From assembly GCF_032681285.1 (NCBI RefSeq), contig NZ_CP136336.1, positions 917,001 to 981,000 of the forward strand: a stretch of 64,000 nucleotides of DNA, written 5' to 3'. This document shows, piece by piece, positions 34,466-41,046 of this stretch (position 1 is its first letter; each line of letters begins with the position of its first letter). The notes beneath the pieces were generated by a model. The model did no database searches. It was given only the letters and a program-made list of their open reading frames with translations, and had not been told where the DNA came from. The position numbers and the translations under genes are program-made. The DNA is from Piscinibacter gummiphilus (GTDB lineage: Bacteria > Pseudomonadota > Gammaproteobacteria > Burkholderiales > Burkholderiaceae_C).

Positions 34466-35308
34466 TCACGAGCAGCGTGCGGTGCGGAAGTCCGAGAAGC
34501 CGAGGGCGTTCGGGTTCGAGCAGGCGAACGAGGTGTAGCGGGTGTCGCCGTCGACGAAGCGCTTCATCCAGGCCACGCCCTTCAGGCCGACGGTGTCGTT
34601 GGCGTTGTTGAAGCAGAAGTGGTCACCCAGGGTCTTCTCCAGGTACTGCTTCGGGTTGCGCGTCATGCTGTTGTAGAACGGGATGGCGTGCGAGATCACC
34701 GGGGCGACGATGTCGCTCTGGCAGCCGAAGATCAGCGTGGGCACGGTCACCGACGAGAAGTTGGTCGAGGTGTTCCACGGGGCTTGCGGGGCCGCAGCCT
34801 TGATCGAGGGACGGTTCTTAGCCGAGATCAGCGAGCCGCCACCACCCATCGACCAACCCATGACGCCGGTGCGGGTGCCGTCGACCTTGCCGTAGATCGG
34901 GCTGCTGCTGGTGTTGCCCAGGGCCACCACCTGGTCGAGCGCGGCCAGCTGCTGGCGCGAGCGGCTGTCAGGCTGGTCGCCGGTGGTGTAGGTGTCGATG
35001 GTGATGACCACGAAACCGTGCGAGGCCAGGCGGGGGCCCCACCAGTTGATGCTGCTCTGGTACGAGAGGAAGCCCGGCACGATGGCGATCGCACCGACCT
35101 TCGCACCGGCGTTGGTGGGGTAGTACACGGTGCCCGCGCCGTAGCCGCTCGGGCGGCTCACATTGAACTGACTCACGTTGAACGGGCCGCGGTTGGCTTC
35201 GAGCGACGACTTGGTCGGGTTCGGGCCGATCTGCACGGCCGAGGCGCTGGCGGTGATCAGGCCGGCGCCAACAAGCACGGCCGCCTTGAGGAACTGCTGA
35301 ATCTTCAT
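34466..35308 (-). CDS. PET-hydrolase-like polyesterase, divergent paralogue
   Basis: A 280-residue secreted alpha/beta hydrolase of the cutinase-like polyesterase family. The signal peptide ends near residue 24 (ASASA). The nucleophile elbow is GWSMGGGGS (Ser153), with Asp199 (CQSD) and His230 (GDHFC). The wobbling-Trp position is Trp178. Cys196 and Cys232 match the extra active-site disulfide known from the I. sakaiensis PETase, and Cys263-Cys279 the C-terminal one. But the loop after His230 is three residues shorter than in that enzyme, and the subsite residues are Phe231, His207 and Phe211, as in ordinary cutinases; Phe80 replaces the oxyanion-side Tyr. The ATG at 35308 has a GGAGA site. 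First member of a duplicated cassette with a Lif-like and an AraC gene. Confidence 0.9.
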   Translation of the reverse strand: MKIQQFLKAAVLVGAGLITASASAVQIGPNPTKSSLEANRGPFNVSQFNVSRPSGYGAGTVYYPTNAGAKVGAIAIVPGFLSYQSSINWWGPRLASHGFVVITIDTYTTGDQPDSRSRQQLAALDQVVALGNTSSSPIYGKVDGTRTGVMGWSMGGGGSLISAKNRPSIKAAAPQAPWNTSTNFSSVTVPTLIFGCQSDIVAPVISHAIPFYNSMTRNPKQYLEKTLGDHFCFNNANDTVGLKGVAWMKRFVDGDTRYTSFACSNPNALGFSDFRTARCS

Positions 35309-35623
35309 TTTGTCTCCAGAGGTTTTCGGGGTGATGCCGGCGGACACAAGCTCTGGGTCAAATGGCCTGCTCGCTGGCGAACTGATTATTGAACCGGCGT
35401 GCAATCAAGGCCGTTCTCGCTTTCCTGATACCACTCGACTCAAGCTTGACGGGCGGTTTTGTGCTAAGCATTTCTTCCGCGGTGAATTTCGAGATAGTCC
35501 TTCTGTTTCAACGTGTTGCGACGGTTTTCCTGGGGTTTGCCCGAGCCTTCGGGTCTGCGCTAGCGGCTGGCGAAGGGTGGTGTGCTTTACTCGCCGACAG
35601 CGTTTTCAGCTCAAAAAATCACC
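35309..35623. other. 315-base AT-richer divergent region of cassette 1
   Basis: This gap separates PETase-like gene 1 (-) from the Lif-like gene 1 (+) and must hold both promoters. It is visibly richer in A and T than its surroundings, notably 35380-35530. A weak stem CCCGA/TCGGG lies at 35540-35553. I see no open frame worth calling. Apart from the TTGTCTCC (ribosome site strand) next to the hydrolase start I found no long word shared with the matching gap of cassette 2, so the AraC sites, if any, are not obvious by eye. Confidence 0.45.
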
Positions 35624-36361
35624 ATGCGTGCAATATTGCTTCTGTCCGGGGCTGCCTTGGTGGGTGCGGCTTGCTTGTGGGGCCGCTCCATTCCGGCTGA
35701 CCCTGCCCCGGGCAATGTGGCCGGCGGGCCGCCTCAGTCCGGTGCCGCCGGCCGCATGGCGCCCGGCGCGGTGGGCAGCGGGCCGTCGGCCCAGGTGAGC
35801 CTGTCCGACGCGAGTGGCCTGACGCTCGACGCCGCACGCCTCTTCGAGCTGGGGTTTGGCGGCGGGCTGCTGCTCGACCGCGACACGCGCGCCTCGATCG
35901 AGGCCCTCATCAACACCATGCCTCTCGAGCCCTCGGCCCACGACATGGACCGCCTGCAGCGTGCGCTGCGCGCCGGCCTGCCCTACGAGGAAGCCGAGAA
36001 GGCCTACAAGCTCATCTCCAACTACCGCTCGTACAGCCGCGACGTGCAGCGCGAAATGCTGCCGATGGGCATCCCGAAGAACCAGGACGAGGCGCGCCAG
36101 CTCTACGACCGCATGGACGCGATGAAGCGCCGCTACTTCGACGAGTCGACCGCCAACGCGCTCTTCGGCGCCGACGAGCGCTACGCCCGCCTCACGATGG
36201 AAGCCGGCTTCATCCAGCAGGACGTGACCCTCACGCCCGAGCAGAAGACGCAGGCGATCGAAGCGCTGCGCGCCAAGCTGCCGGCCGAGCGCCGCGAGCT
36301 GATCCCGCCTTACGTGGCACCGGAGCCGGTGGACCCCGCGGCGTCCTTGCCCGCGTCGTAG
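35624..36361 (+). CDS. lipase-chaperone (Lif)-like membrane-anchored protein 1
   Basis: A 245-residue protein with the layout of lipase-specific foldases: one N-terminal membrane helix (AILLLSGAALVGAACLW, residues 3-19), an Ala/Pro/Gly linker to about residue 58, then a helical domain. LLLDRDTRASIEALINTM (residues 82-99) aligns with the mini-domain motif RxxFDYxLSA of Lif, with the Arg kept but FDY replaced by IEA. The end (YFDESTANALFGADERYARL, EQKTQAIEALRAKLPAERRE) resembles the Lif C-terminal arm. It is shorter than classical Lif (about 280-345 aa). The ATG at 35624 directly precedes the membrane helix. Divergent from the PETase-like gene; its 3' end overlaps the AraC gene by 52 bases. A foldase role for the neighbouring hydrolase is inferred. 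Confidence 0.75.
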   Translation: MRAILLLSGAALVGAACLWGRSIPADPAPGNVAGGPPQSGAAGRMAPGAVGSGPSAQVSLSDASGLTLDAARLFELGFGGGLLLDRDTRASIEALINTMPLEPSAHDMDRLQRALRAGLPYEEAEKAYKLISNYRSYSRDVQREMLPMGIPKNQDEARQLYDRMDAMKRRYFDESTANALFGADERYARLTMEAGFIQQDVTLTPEQKTQAIEALRAKLPAERRELIPPYVAPEPVDPAASLPAS

Positions 36362-39457: not shown

Positions 39458-40192
39458 ATGCCGCGCTTCAAGCCCCTTCCCGTCTTTCTTGTGTTGGCGG
39501 CCGCTTTCATGGCAGTGGCCGTGGGCTATCGCATGTGGGCGCCCGAGCCGTCTGATGCCGCCCCTCTGGCCGCCACCGCCCCCCAAGCCGTCGGAACCCC
39601 GCGCGGCCCGGCCAACGAGCCGTCCGGCGCGTCCGCAGCCGCCGCCTCGTCGTCGGTGATGGTGGCCGACGCCTCGGGCGCGACCCTCGACGCCGCACGC
39701 CTCTTCGAGCTCGGCTTTGCCGGTGGCTTGGTGATCGACCGCGACACCCGCGCCGTGATCGAGGCGGTGCTCAACTCCATGCCCGAGCATCCCTCCGCCG
39801 CTGACCTGCAGCGCCTGGAGCGCACGCTGCGCGAGGGCCTGCCGCGTGAAGACGCCGAGCGTGCGCTCAAGCTCTTCGGCTCGTACCGCGACTACACGGC
39901 CGACGTGCGCCAGCAGATGGAGCCGCTCGGCGTGCCGCGCAACCTCCAGGAGATGAACGCCTTCTTTGACCAGATGGAGGCCATCAAGCACCGCCATTTC
40001 GATACCGCCACCGCGCAGGCGCTCTTCGGCGCGGCCGACATGCACGCGCGGGTGTCGATGGAGGCGATGTTCGTCGACCAGGACCCGTCGCTCACGCTCG
40101 AGCAGAAGAAGCAGCGGCTCGACGAGCTCCGCGCCAGGCTGCCGCCGGAGCAGCAGTCGCTGATTCCCCAGCCGTCTCAGCCGGCGTCCTGA
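39458..40192 (+). CDS. lipase-chaperone (Lif)-like membrane-anchored protein 2
   Basis: A 244-residue paralogue of the protein at 35624-36361, with the same architecture: basic start, membrane helix (LPVFLVLAAAFMAVAVGY, about residues 7-24), Ala/Pro-rich linker and an all-helical periplasmic domain. TLDAARLFELGFAGGLVIDR and DTRAVIEAVLNSMPEHPSAA match the first paralogue and align with the Lif mini-domain region, again lacking the FDY of the classic motif. FDTATAQALFGAADMHARVS and LEQKKQRLDELRARLPPEQQ match the C-terminal arm. It is divergent from the PETase gene and overlaps the AraC gene by 16 bases. Proposed role: periplasmic folding aid for the secreted hydrolase. Confidence 0.75.
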   Translation: MPRFKPLPVFLVLAAAFMAVAVGYRMWAPEPSDAAPLAATAPQAVGTPRGPANEPSGASAAAASSSVMVADASGATLDAARLFELGFAGGLVIDRDTRAVIEAVLNSMPEHPSAADLQRLERTLREGLPREDAERALKLFGSYRDYTADVRQQMEPLGVPRNLQEMNAFFDQMEAIKHRHFDTATAQALFGAADMHARVSMEAMFVDQDPSLTLEQKKQRLDELRARLPPEQQSLIPQPSQPAS

Positions 40193-41046
40193 GGGGCGCC
40201 CGGCGGCTGGTTGCTGCCACCGTGGACGAACACCCGCACATGCTTGGGGTCGCGCGCGTTCGACGGCGTCTGCCCGTACCAGCGCTGGAAGGTGCGCGTG
40301 AACTGCGGTGAATCGGCAAAACCCGCGAGATAAGCCACCTGCGTGATCGAGCGGCGGGTGTAGAGCACGTCGTACACCCGGCGCTGCTTGAGCCAGTTCT
40401 GGTAGTCGCGCATCGACATGCCCACCGCCGACGAGAAGAGCCGCGACATCACCTGGTGCGAGTAGCCGAGCTTGCGCGCGAGCGCGTCGAGGCTCAGCTC
40501 GGGATGCGCGTCCAGCATGCGGATGAGCGGCAGCGCACGTGGGTCGGGCGCCGGGGCCGGGGGCAGCACCCGCTGCACTTCAGCCACGGCGCGCGAGAAG
40601 GTCAGTTCCGCTTCGATGATCGAAGCCCGCCCATGCAGCAGCGCGTCGAGCTCGTCGTTGAGCGTGTTGAAGAGGTGCCGGTCGAGCTCGCGCACACCGC
40701 CTTGCTGCATGGCGCGGAACACGTGGTACGACGCATGCGCCGGCATGATGTTCAGGCTGACGATGGGCACGTCGGTCGCGTCGAGGCTGCGCTCCACGCG
40801 CGGTGGCACCATGAGCGCGGAGGCCGACAACACCCGCCCGTCGGGCAGCGCGGTCTTGAACGGGCGACCGTCCACGCTCAGCAGCAGCACCGCCGGGTGG
40901 CGCAGCGTCATCGTCGTTGCGAGGCTTGCGCTCGTGTAGATGAAACCGTGGTGGCCCAGCACGTAGGAGTTGTCGAGCAACCCGTCGTCGGACGCGATGT
41001 GGGGAGTGGTGTCGCAGTGGTGTGGCGTGGAAGCGCCCATGGGCAT
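40177..41046 (-). CDS. AraC-family regulator of cassette 2
   Basis: A 289-residue AraC-type regulator, paralogous over its length to that of cassette 1 (LGHHGFIYTSASLATTMTLR; PRVERSLDATDVP). The HTH units are LSLDALARKLGYSHQVMSRL and SITQVAYLAGFADSPQFTRT, then RWYGQTPSNAR. The frame is open to 41244, but starts beyond 41175 would lie inside rnpB, so the ATG at 41046 or 41040 is preferred. It is convergent with the Lif-like gene and divergent from rnpB. The inducer is unknown. Confidence 0.85.
   Translation of the reverse strand: MPMGASTPHHCDTTPHIASDDGLLDNSYVLGHHGFIYTSASLATTMTLRHPAVLLLSVDGRPFKTALPDGRVLSASALMVPPRVERSLDATDVPIVSLNIMPAHASYHVFRAMQQGGVRELDRHLFNTLNDELDALLHGRASIIEAELTFSRAVAEVQRVLPPAPAPDPRALPLIRMLDAHPELSLDALARKLGYSHQVMSRLFSSAVGMSMRDYQNWLKQRRVYDVLYTRRSITQVAYLAGFADSPQFTRTFQRWYGQTPSNARDPKHVRVFVHGGSNQPPGAPQDAG

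Follow-up and report, generated by a model that had tools for sequence, protein, structure and literature searches.

Lipase-specific foldases (Lif), exemplified by LipB and LimK (PF03280), are proteins of about 330–350 aa encoded beside secreted ester hydrolases. They comprise an N-terminal anchor helix, a linker, the domain MD1, an extended helical domain and a second lipase-gripping domain, MD2, and their classical foldase motif is RXXFDY(F/C)L(S/T)A (PMC7046727). A Lif-type chaperone gene was also recovered, together with type II secretion, in a Burkholderia vietnamiensis screen for lost extracellular degradation of medium-chain-length polyhydroxyalkanoate (mcl-PHA), but the Lip1/LipO pair described there is annotated as a triacylglycerol lipase and a lipase secretion chaperone and is not a PETase-family pair (PMC13101487). 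Among hydrolases of poly(ethylene terephthalate) (PET), the closest described relatives of the enzymes treated here are IsPETase of Piscinibacter (Ideonella) sakaiensis 201-F6 and RgCutII of Rhizobacter gummiphilus. We analysed a 64,000-nucleotide stretch of Piscinibacter gummiphilus (contig NZ_CP136336.1, positions 917,001 to 981,000; hereafter the window), in which a PETase-family hydrolase gene (-), a gene for a short Lif-like protein (+) and an AraC-family regulator gene (-) occur twice with pyrC between the copies (cassette 1: H1, L1, A1; cassette 2: H2, L2, A2; Table 1), just as a preliminary description of this DNA had it. Two conclusions drawn from comparison of genes and genomes are well supported, namely the pairing of hydrolase and Lif genes across genomes and the origin of the IsPETase-bearing block. 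The preliminary description knew of no such unit for PETases, which the literature searched bears out: among the matches listed, covering titles and abstract beginnings of the open literature with subscription papers outside the scope, no paper dealt with PETase-Lif pairing.

Matches to a PETase profile at 1e-40 or better were found in 7 of 11 genomes of the genus, 8 of 299 drawn from the family, 1 of 399 from the order (the window's own) and 3 of 369 from the class, the window's own included. Pairing was surveyed at 45 PETase places in 14 genomes of the genus and family, one of which (G228) entered through its Lif; these places include the near-identical copies on contig C2 of the window's genome and in 201-F6, a 162-bp contig-end fragment (L040) and the cut gene of G228. 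Within limits chosen after the spacings were known (1.6 kb for Lif, 2.6 kb for AraC), a short Lif accompanies 33 of the 45 PETase-family genes, two of them (L051, G005) by virtue of a 27-residue Lif remnant (E 3e-4), and each of the 14 genomes holds at least one pair. The expected co-occurrence of PETase homologues with this Lif family is thereby supported. The Lif search profile was built with three sequences picked for lying beside PETases (L088, L091 and L093, with Pfam scores of 51.7, 28.2 and 25.4 bits against the PF03280 cut-off of 25.7), and two matches, with 23.7 bits in G303 and 19.1 bits in G072, fall short of that cut-off. In both further class genomes, G834 and G946, a Lif-like frame scoring 28 bits is placed directly downstream of the PETase gene. 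These two loci (L135 and L134, respectively) belong to another family of the class and have a further frame without a Pfam match after the Lif-like one.

The survey also yielded counts that tell against a general unit: no short Lif was found within 1.6 kb at 12 of the 45 PETase places and no homologous AraC within 2.6 kb at 24, seven places having neither. Together with the fact that the AraC linkage is largely that of one locus, the 12 places without Lif would suit the view that Lif genes are common and adjoin PETases by chance or hitch-hiking, with no functional link. We consider this very unlikely, as the pairing persists across changes of locus, orientation, genus and family, and short Lifs also adjoin two further hydrolase families that look secreted. 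Among the closest pairs, those of this genus are divergent and those of G168, G226, G303, G249 and G072 co-directional, and such a difference of orientation between genera seems to argue against passive linkage of hydrolase and Lif.

Some further loci deserve mention. At L019:5414-7444 on contig C1 of the window's genome, a short Lif gene is divergent from a gene of a hydrolase family that has no Pfam name and carries a GFSQGS motif; the neighbouring AraC is of another type, with an Arabinose_bd domain. Short Lif frames are located directly behind esterases in G173 (L131), G141 (L132) and G057 (L133); Esterase_PHB (PF10503) was checked in G173 and G057 and found in both. The window's genome encodes 13 Lipase_chap matches, an unusual number, six of which are short Lifs (frames of about 230–266 aa). 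In G009, both hydrolase frames of the H3/H4 locus (L048, G009:C1:565000-578000) are broken near their 3' ends, by decay or assembly error.

At about 245 aa, the short Lif corresponds to the N-terminal half of a lipase foldase, and both L1 and L2 match only the first half of the 192-position Lipase_chap profile. Besides the gene position next to a secreted ester hydrolase, it shares with LipB and LimK the predicted N-terminal anchor helix (a hydrophobic helix at residues 7–26 of the structure model, a candidate membrane anchor), the linker, MD1 and the start of the helical domain. For L2, the fold of MD1 and of the beginning of the extended helical domain is present in the structure model and in the alignment to LipB; the protein ends after the part matching profile position 101, equivalent to LipB residue 229, and is devoid of MD2. 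The partner differs as well, being a PETase-family hydrolase. We propose that this half-length, predicted membrane-anchored Lif would bind the neighbouring hydrolase as a foldase or holdase, either helping it to fold or keeping it export-ready in the periplasm. Several points weigh against such a role. Active IsPETase is routinely made in E. coli without Lif, so that folding can do without a helper in this host. The classical motif occurs in none of 91 relatives and, with both motif and MD2 missing, Lif action cannot be assumed from homology. In addition, the isolated MD1 of the P. aeruginosa Lif failed to activate lipase (PMC7046727).

The absence of the motif and of half the lipase-embracing structure, along with IsPETase folding in E. 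coli, can also be accommodated if the short Lif is an export adaptor or membrane retainer, which holds the folded hydrolase at the inner membrane and passes it to the type II secretion system. The cooperation of Lif-type chaperones and type II secretion in mcl-PHA degradation, as presented in PMC13101487, agrees with this tentative alternative. What speaks against the adaptor, the less likely of the two roles, is the nature of the retained half: it consists of MD1 and part of the helical domain, which is the site of the foldase motif in classical Lif (PMC7046727).

The regulators A1 and A2 both possess the C-terminal helix-turn-helix of the AraC family (HTH_18). Homologous AraC genes are found near 21 of the 45 hydrolases, mostly at the pyrC island; thus, the earlier idea of the regulator as part of a conserved unit stands for the island and does not extend far beyond it. 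The alignment of nine hydrolase-Lif spacers contains a near-invariant TTTTGTGnTA. Its 13-base form, with one mismatch allowed, occurs twice in the window, both times exactly and once per spacer, where 0.24 occurrences are expected. For 39 of the 45 PETases (all except C2, the pair of broken genes in G009, L125 and two fragments), we scanned the upstream 350 bp for the 10-base form, again allowing one mismatch; nine of the scanned spacers had served to find the box. It was detected upstream of 16 of the 39, shuffles expecting 1.45 in all. The positives comprise all 14 PETases beside an island-type AraC and two without AraC on their own contig, one of which (L056) is cut on that side; within the same 350 bp the box was found at none of 18 PETases without AraC and none of five beside a diverged AraC. 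AraC and box hence go mainly with the pyrC island. Based on this association, the AraC protein is a putative ligand of the box in the divergent spacer, through which it would control the hydrolase-Lif pair. The history of the spacers detracts from this proposal: their common descent explains part of the box conservation, and the box, which some of these very spacers had served to define, may owe its conservation entirely to descent.

A genome scan with L2 led to the 4,023-bp contig NZ_BBYR01000074.1 of P. (I.) sakaiensis 201-F6. This contig shows the gene order of the window, AraC1-pyrC-IsPETase-Lif2-AraC2, and 92.2% DNA identity over 4,014 positions; its two AraC genes are both truncated, either at the contig ends or by a foreign end. 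Compared with the window, 13 bp ahead of the box and the N-terminal portion of AraC2 are missing from it. Genome G063, another genus of the same family by the taxonomy of the tool, holds the contig letter for letter and has one PETase, one short Lif and two pyrC genes, 97% (C74) and 76% (C42) identical to the window's; the C42 pyrC locus has its usual neighbours and no hydrolase among the called genes. The single pyrC match of G008 is situated in an island that shares 98% identity with the 201-F6 contig across 4,003 bp; for the islands of G009 and G006 the identity is 86% and 78%. The block consists of pyrC, cassette 2 and a portion of cassette 1. Since it adds a second pyrC in 201-F6 while the native pyrC locus is free of a hydrolase, we infer that I. 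sakaiensis acquired it by insertion, the donor being a relative of this genus, and that IsPETase would have arrived on it. NCBI also places 201-F6 in Piscinibacter, and the transfer argument therefore rests on the two pyrC genes and not on genus names. Between the block and G008, synonymous divergence (dS) amounts to 0.02–0.05 per gene, which we judge too much for decades, so that G008 would not be the direct donor. The block in the window points to the kind of chromosome from which IsPETase likely came. A mobile origin of the PETase gene is not treated in the literature searched, as far as titles, abstract beginnings and passages of PMC12424806 extend.

A second copy of the block was found in the window's own genome, on contig C2 (200,976 bp), which is probably a plasmid. 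It is positioned between a Tn3-family transposase gene (DDE_Tnp_Tn3, 335 bits; terminal inverted repeats of 106 nt, 94%) and a truncated second copy, inside perfect inverted repeats of 2,020 nt, and at the other junction, C2 has exactly the sequence with which the 201-F6 contig ends (its final 20 bases). In both mobile copies AraC2 is reduced to its C-terminal part, and C2 agrees with 201-F6 on the missing 13 bp before the box. The two align gap-free over 3,810 bp and differ at 23 sites, every one of which falls in a 392-bp stretch of the PETase gene (L017:6406-7278 on C2), the 3,418 other bases being identical; this stretch is a mosaic, possibly produced by gene conversion from an unseen third PETase. 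On contig C3 (8000-19500, L022), full-length Lif and hydrolase genes are enclosed by two copies of the Tn3-family unit of C2, and chromosomal relatives of that block are found in L021. The mobility of the block in the window's genome could be taken to mean that it was the source and that this genus obtained its chromosomal islands from it. Such a reverse transfer is scarcely credible, given that the sole pyrC match of G008 is the one in its island while 201-F6 has a second, native-type pyrC, that the islands of G009 and G006 are, by their lower identity, older than the block, and that the chromosomal hydrolases have the ancestral state at the six sites considered below.

H2, whose best solved relatives are IsPETase chains, differs from IsPETase at 13 of 290 residues and, on sequence and tree evidence, is a member of the IsPETase lineage. 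It keeps the triad S160/D206/H237 and the disulfide cysteines 203/239 and 273/289, and retains W159, W185, S238 and N241. Positions 159/238, where W159 and S238 in the active-site cleft are typical of IsPETase, are W/S in H2 and W/F in H1. The G008 enzyme is the nearest chromosomal relative of IsPETase, six residues away (K95N, D186N, S214H, I218F, D220N and E274Q, from IsPETase to G008). As H2 has the G008 codon at all six sites (N95, N186, H214, F218, N220 and Q274), the most parsimonious placement of all six changes is on the IsPETase branch, where S214, I218 and the four other substitutions would have arisen. H1 has H214/F218 too, and S214/I218 is confined to two of 45 aligned hydrolases, both from the block (this alignment also covers two class genomes and omits two fragments). 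S214/I218 has been called unique to IsPETase, the H214/F218 variant being less active (PMC10080609). Codon changes on the IsPETase branch number six nonsynonymous and two synonymous in the PETase gene versus two and nine in the flanking genes (Fisher p 0.024), five AraC2 and five other changes being impossible to polarise; from G008 to H2 there are seven nonsynonymous and 25 synonymous changes (p 0.008). An adaptive meaning of the six changes is tempered by two considerations: it would rest on small counts, with tests picked after the data were known, and D186N, the reverse of one derived change, raised both stability and PET degradation according to PMC10975908, so the derived residues need not all be gains.

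The gene trees bear on whether an intact three-gene unit was duplicated once and both copies kept as units for different polyesters, as the preliminary description suggested. The equal order and orientation in both copies and the coherence of cassette 2 favour this view. Cassette 2 of the window's genome, G008, G009 and G006 forms one hydrolase clade with IsPETase (100/97) and one AraC clade (93/100); G006 joins more weakly in the Lif tree (70/92), and the trees disagree on the order of G009 and G006. Cassette 1 behaves otherwise. That of the window's genome and G008 does not join that of G009 and G006 (approximately unbiased (AU) test, p 1.4e-9 for the hydrolase and 0.033 for AraC), and the grouping found for AraC is rejected for the hydrolases (AU p 6e-7), the clades having been named after the trees were known. 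The three families are therefore largely congruent for cassette 2 and incongruent for cassette 1, which makes a single duplication of the intact unit improbable. Moreover, H1 joins RgCutII, its closest solved relative, in the hydrolase tree together with a G007 gene, and the distance between H1 and H2 thus reflects an old lineage and not rapid divergence after a recent copy. RgCutII itself is encoded elsewhere in the R. gummiphilus genome (G001) beside a tree-distant AraC; the PETase at pyrC of that genome also has an AraC neighbour, and neither has a short Lif within 1.6 kb. Cassette 1 looks like an older, reshuffled paralogue reassembled from older lineages, and a division of labour of H1 and H2 on different polyesters is possible. 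Since the congeners G002, G003, G004 and G010 have pyrC and the neighbouring major facilitator superfamily (MFS) gene with no PETase match in the genome, the island was either built around pyrC or lost from it.

Table 1. Features of the two cassettes and their surroundings (positions in the window).
Feature	Coordinates	Strand	Evidence
Hydrolase 1 (H1), PETase family, RgCutII lineage	34466..35308	-	PF12740, 417 bits; 8air (RgCutII), 496 bits; tree
Divergent spacer H1/L1 with box TTTTGTGCTAAGC at 35457-35469	35309..35623	.	Spacer alignment and box scan
Short Lif-like protein L1	35624..36361	+	PF03280, 61 bits, profile 2-96 of 192
AraC-family regulator A1	36310..37158	-	PF12833, 61.5 bits; 52-bp 3' overlap with L1
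pyrC (dihydroorotase), passenger gene of the IsPETase block	37188..38243	+	PF01979 (Amidohydro_1), 81 bits; second copy in 201-F6
Hydrolase 2 (H2), resident relative of IsPETase, H214/F218	38341..39213	-	PF12740, 438 bits; IsPETase chains, 610 bits
Divergent spacer H2/L2 with box TTTTGTGGTACGC at 39326-39338	39214..39457	.	Spacer alignment and box scan
Short Lif-like protein L2: predicted anchor helix, MD1, first part of extended helical domain	39458..40192	+	PF03280, 60 bits, profile 1-101 of 192
AraC-family regulator A2, start uncertain	40177..41244	-	PF12833, 62.4 bits; 16-bp 3' overlap with L2
Stretch with second copy on contig C2 of the same genome; most also matches the 201-F6 IsPETase contig	35302..40348	.	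91.6% over 5,079 positions (C2); 92.2% over 4,014 positions (NZ_BBYR01000074.1)

The likely starts of the hydrolases are at 35308 for H1 (MKIQQF) and at 39213 for H2 (MNFHRAS); the AraC2 frame opens at 41244. The gene between the cassettes is presumably pyrC, the Pfam match itself being to Amidohydro_1. All three genes are indeed paralogous between the copies, with protein identities of 201/298 (67%) for the hydrolases, 117/237 (49%) for the Lif-like proteins and 139/278 (50%) for AraC; at the DNA level, the hydrolases are 80% identical (759 positions) and Lif plus AraC 68% (1,374 positions). The 3' overlap of the Lif-like and AraC genes, listed among the shared features in the preliminary description, is real in both copies and unequal in length; it was also noted in G008, G007, G005 and 201-F6, and is absent from both copies of G009 and from G006.

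Beyond the window, its genome encodes an MHETase (G000:C1:1297010-1298908; L144, L156) that is 98.7% identical to the 201-F6 protein and lies in a stretch of 11,029 bp with 96.2% identity to contig C104 of 201-F6; the best match in the other 10 genomes of the genus reaches 48%. Because of this gene, the strain may be able to use PET.

Taken jointly, a short Lif as hydrolase helper, AraC as controller, a transferred IsPETase block and six changes on its branch make up an account that we regard as rather probable, although we infer foldase action, AraC control and the adaptive meaning of the six changes. On a bolder formulation we are evenly balanced: a dedicated half-size Lif partner, overlooked next to the best-studied of the plastic-degrading enzymes, would fold or hand over PETases, and IsPETase would be a chromosomal cutinase-like enzyme of the Rhizobacter/Piscinibacter group, carried by a transposon with pyrC as a stowaway, deprived of the sensor part of its regulator and specialised for PET by six substitutions, including S214 and I218. 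The home locus, the passenger gene that marks the insertion, the mobile copy and the relative six residues away provide a testable history of the origin of IsPETase, and positions 186, 214 and 218, at a minimum, are already the subject of enzyme papers. A conserved half-size foldase beside PETases would, if true, offer a new means of improving their production and secretion, and would be an instance of a Lif adapted to polyesterases.

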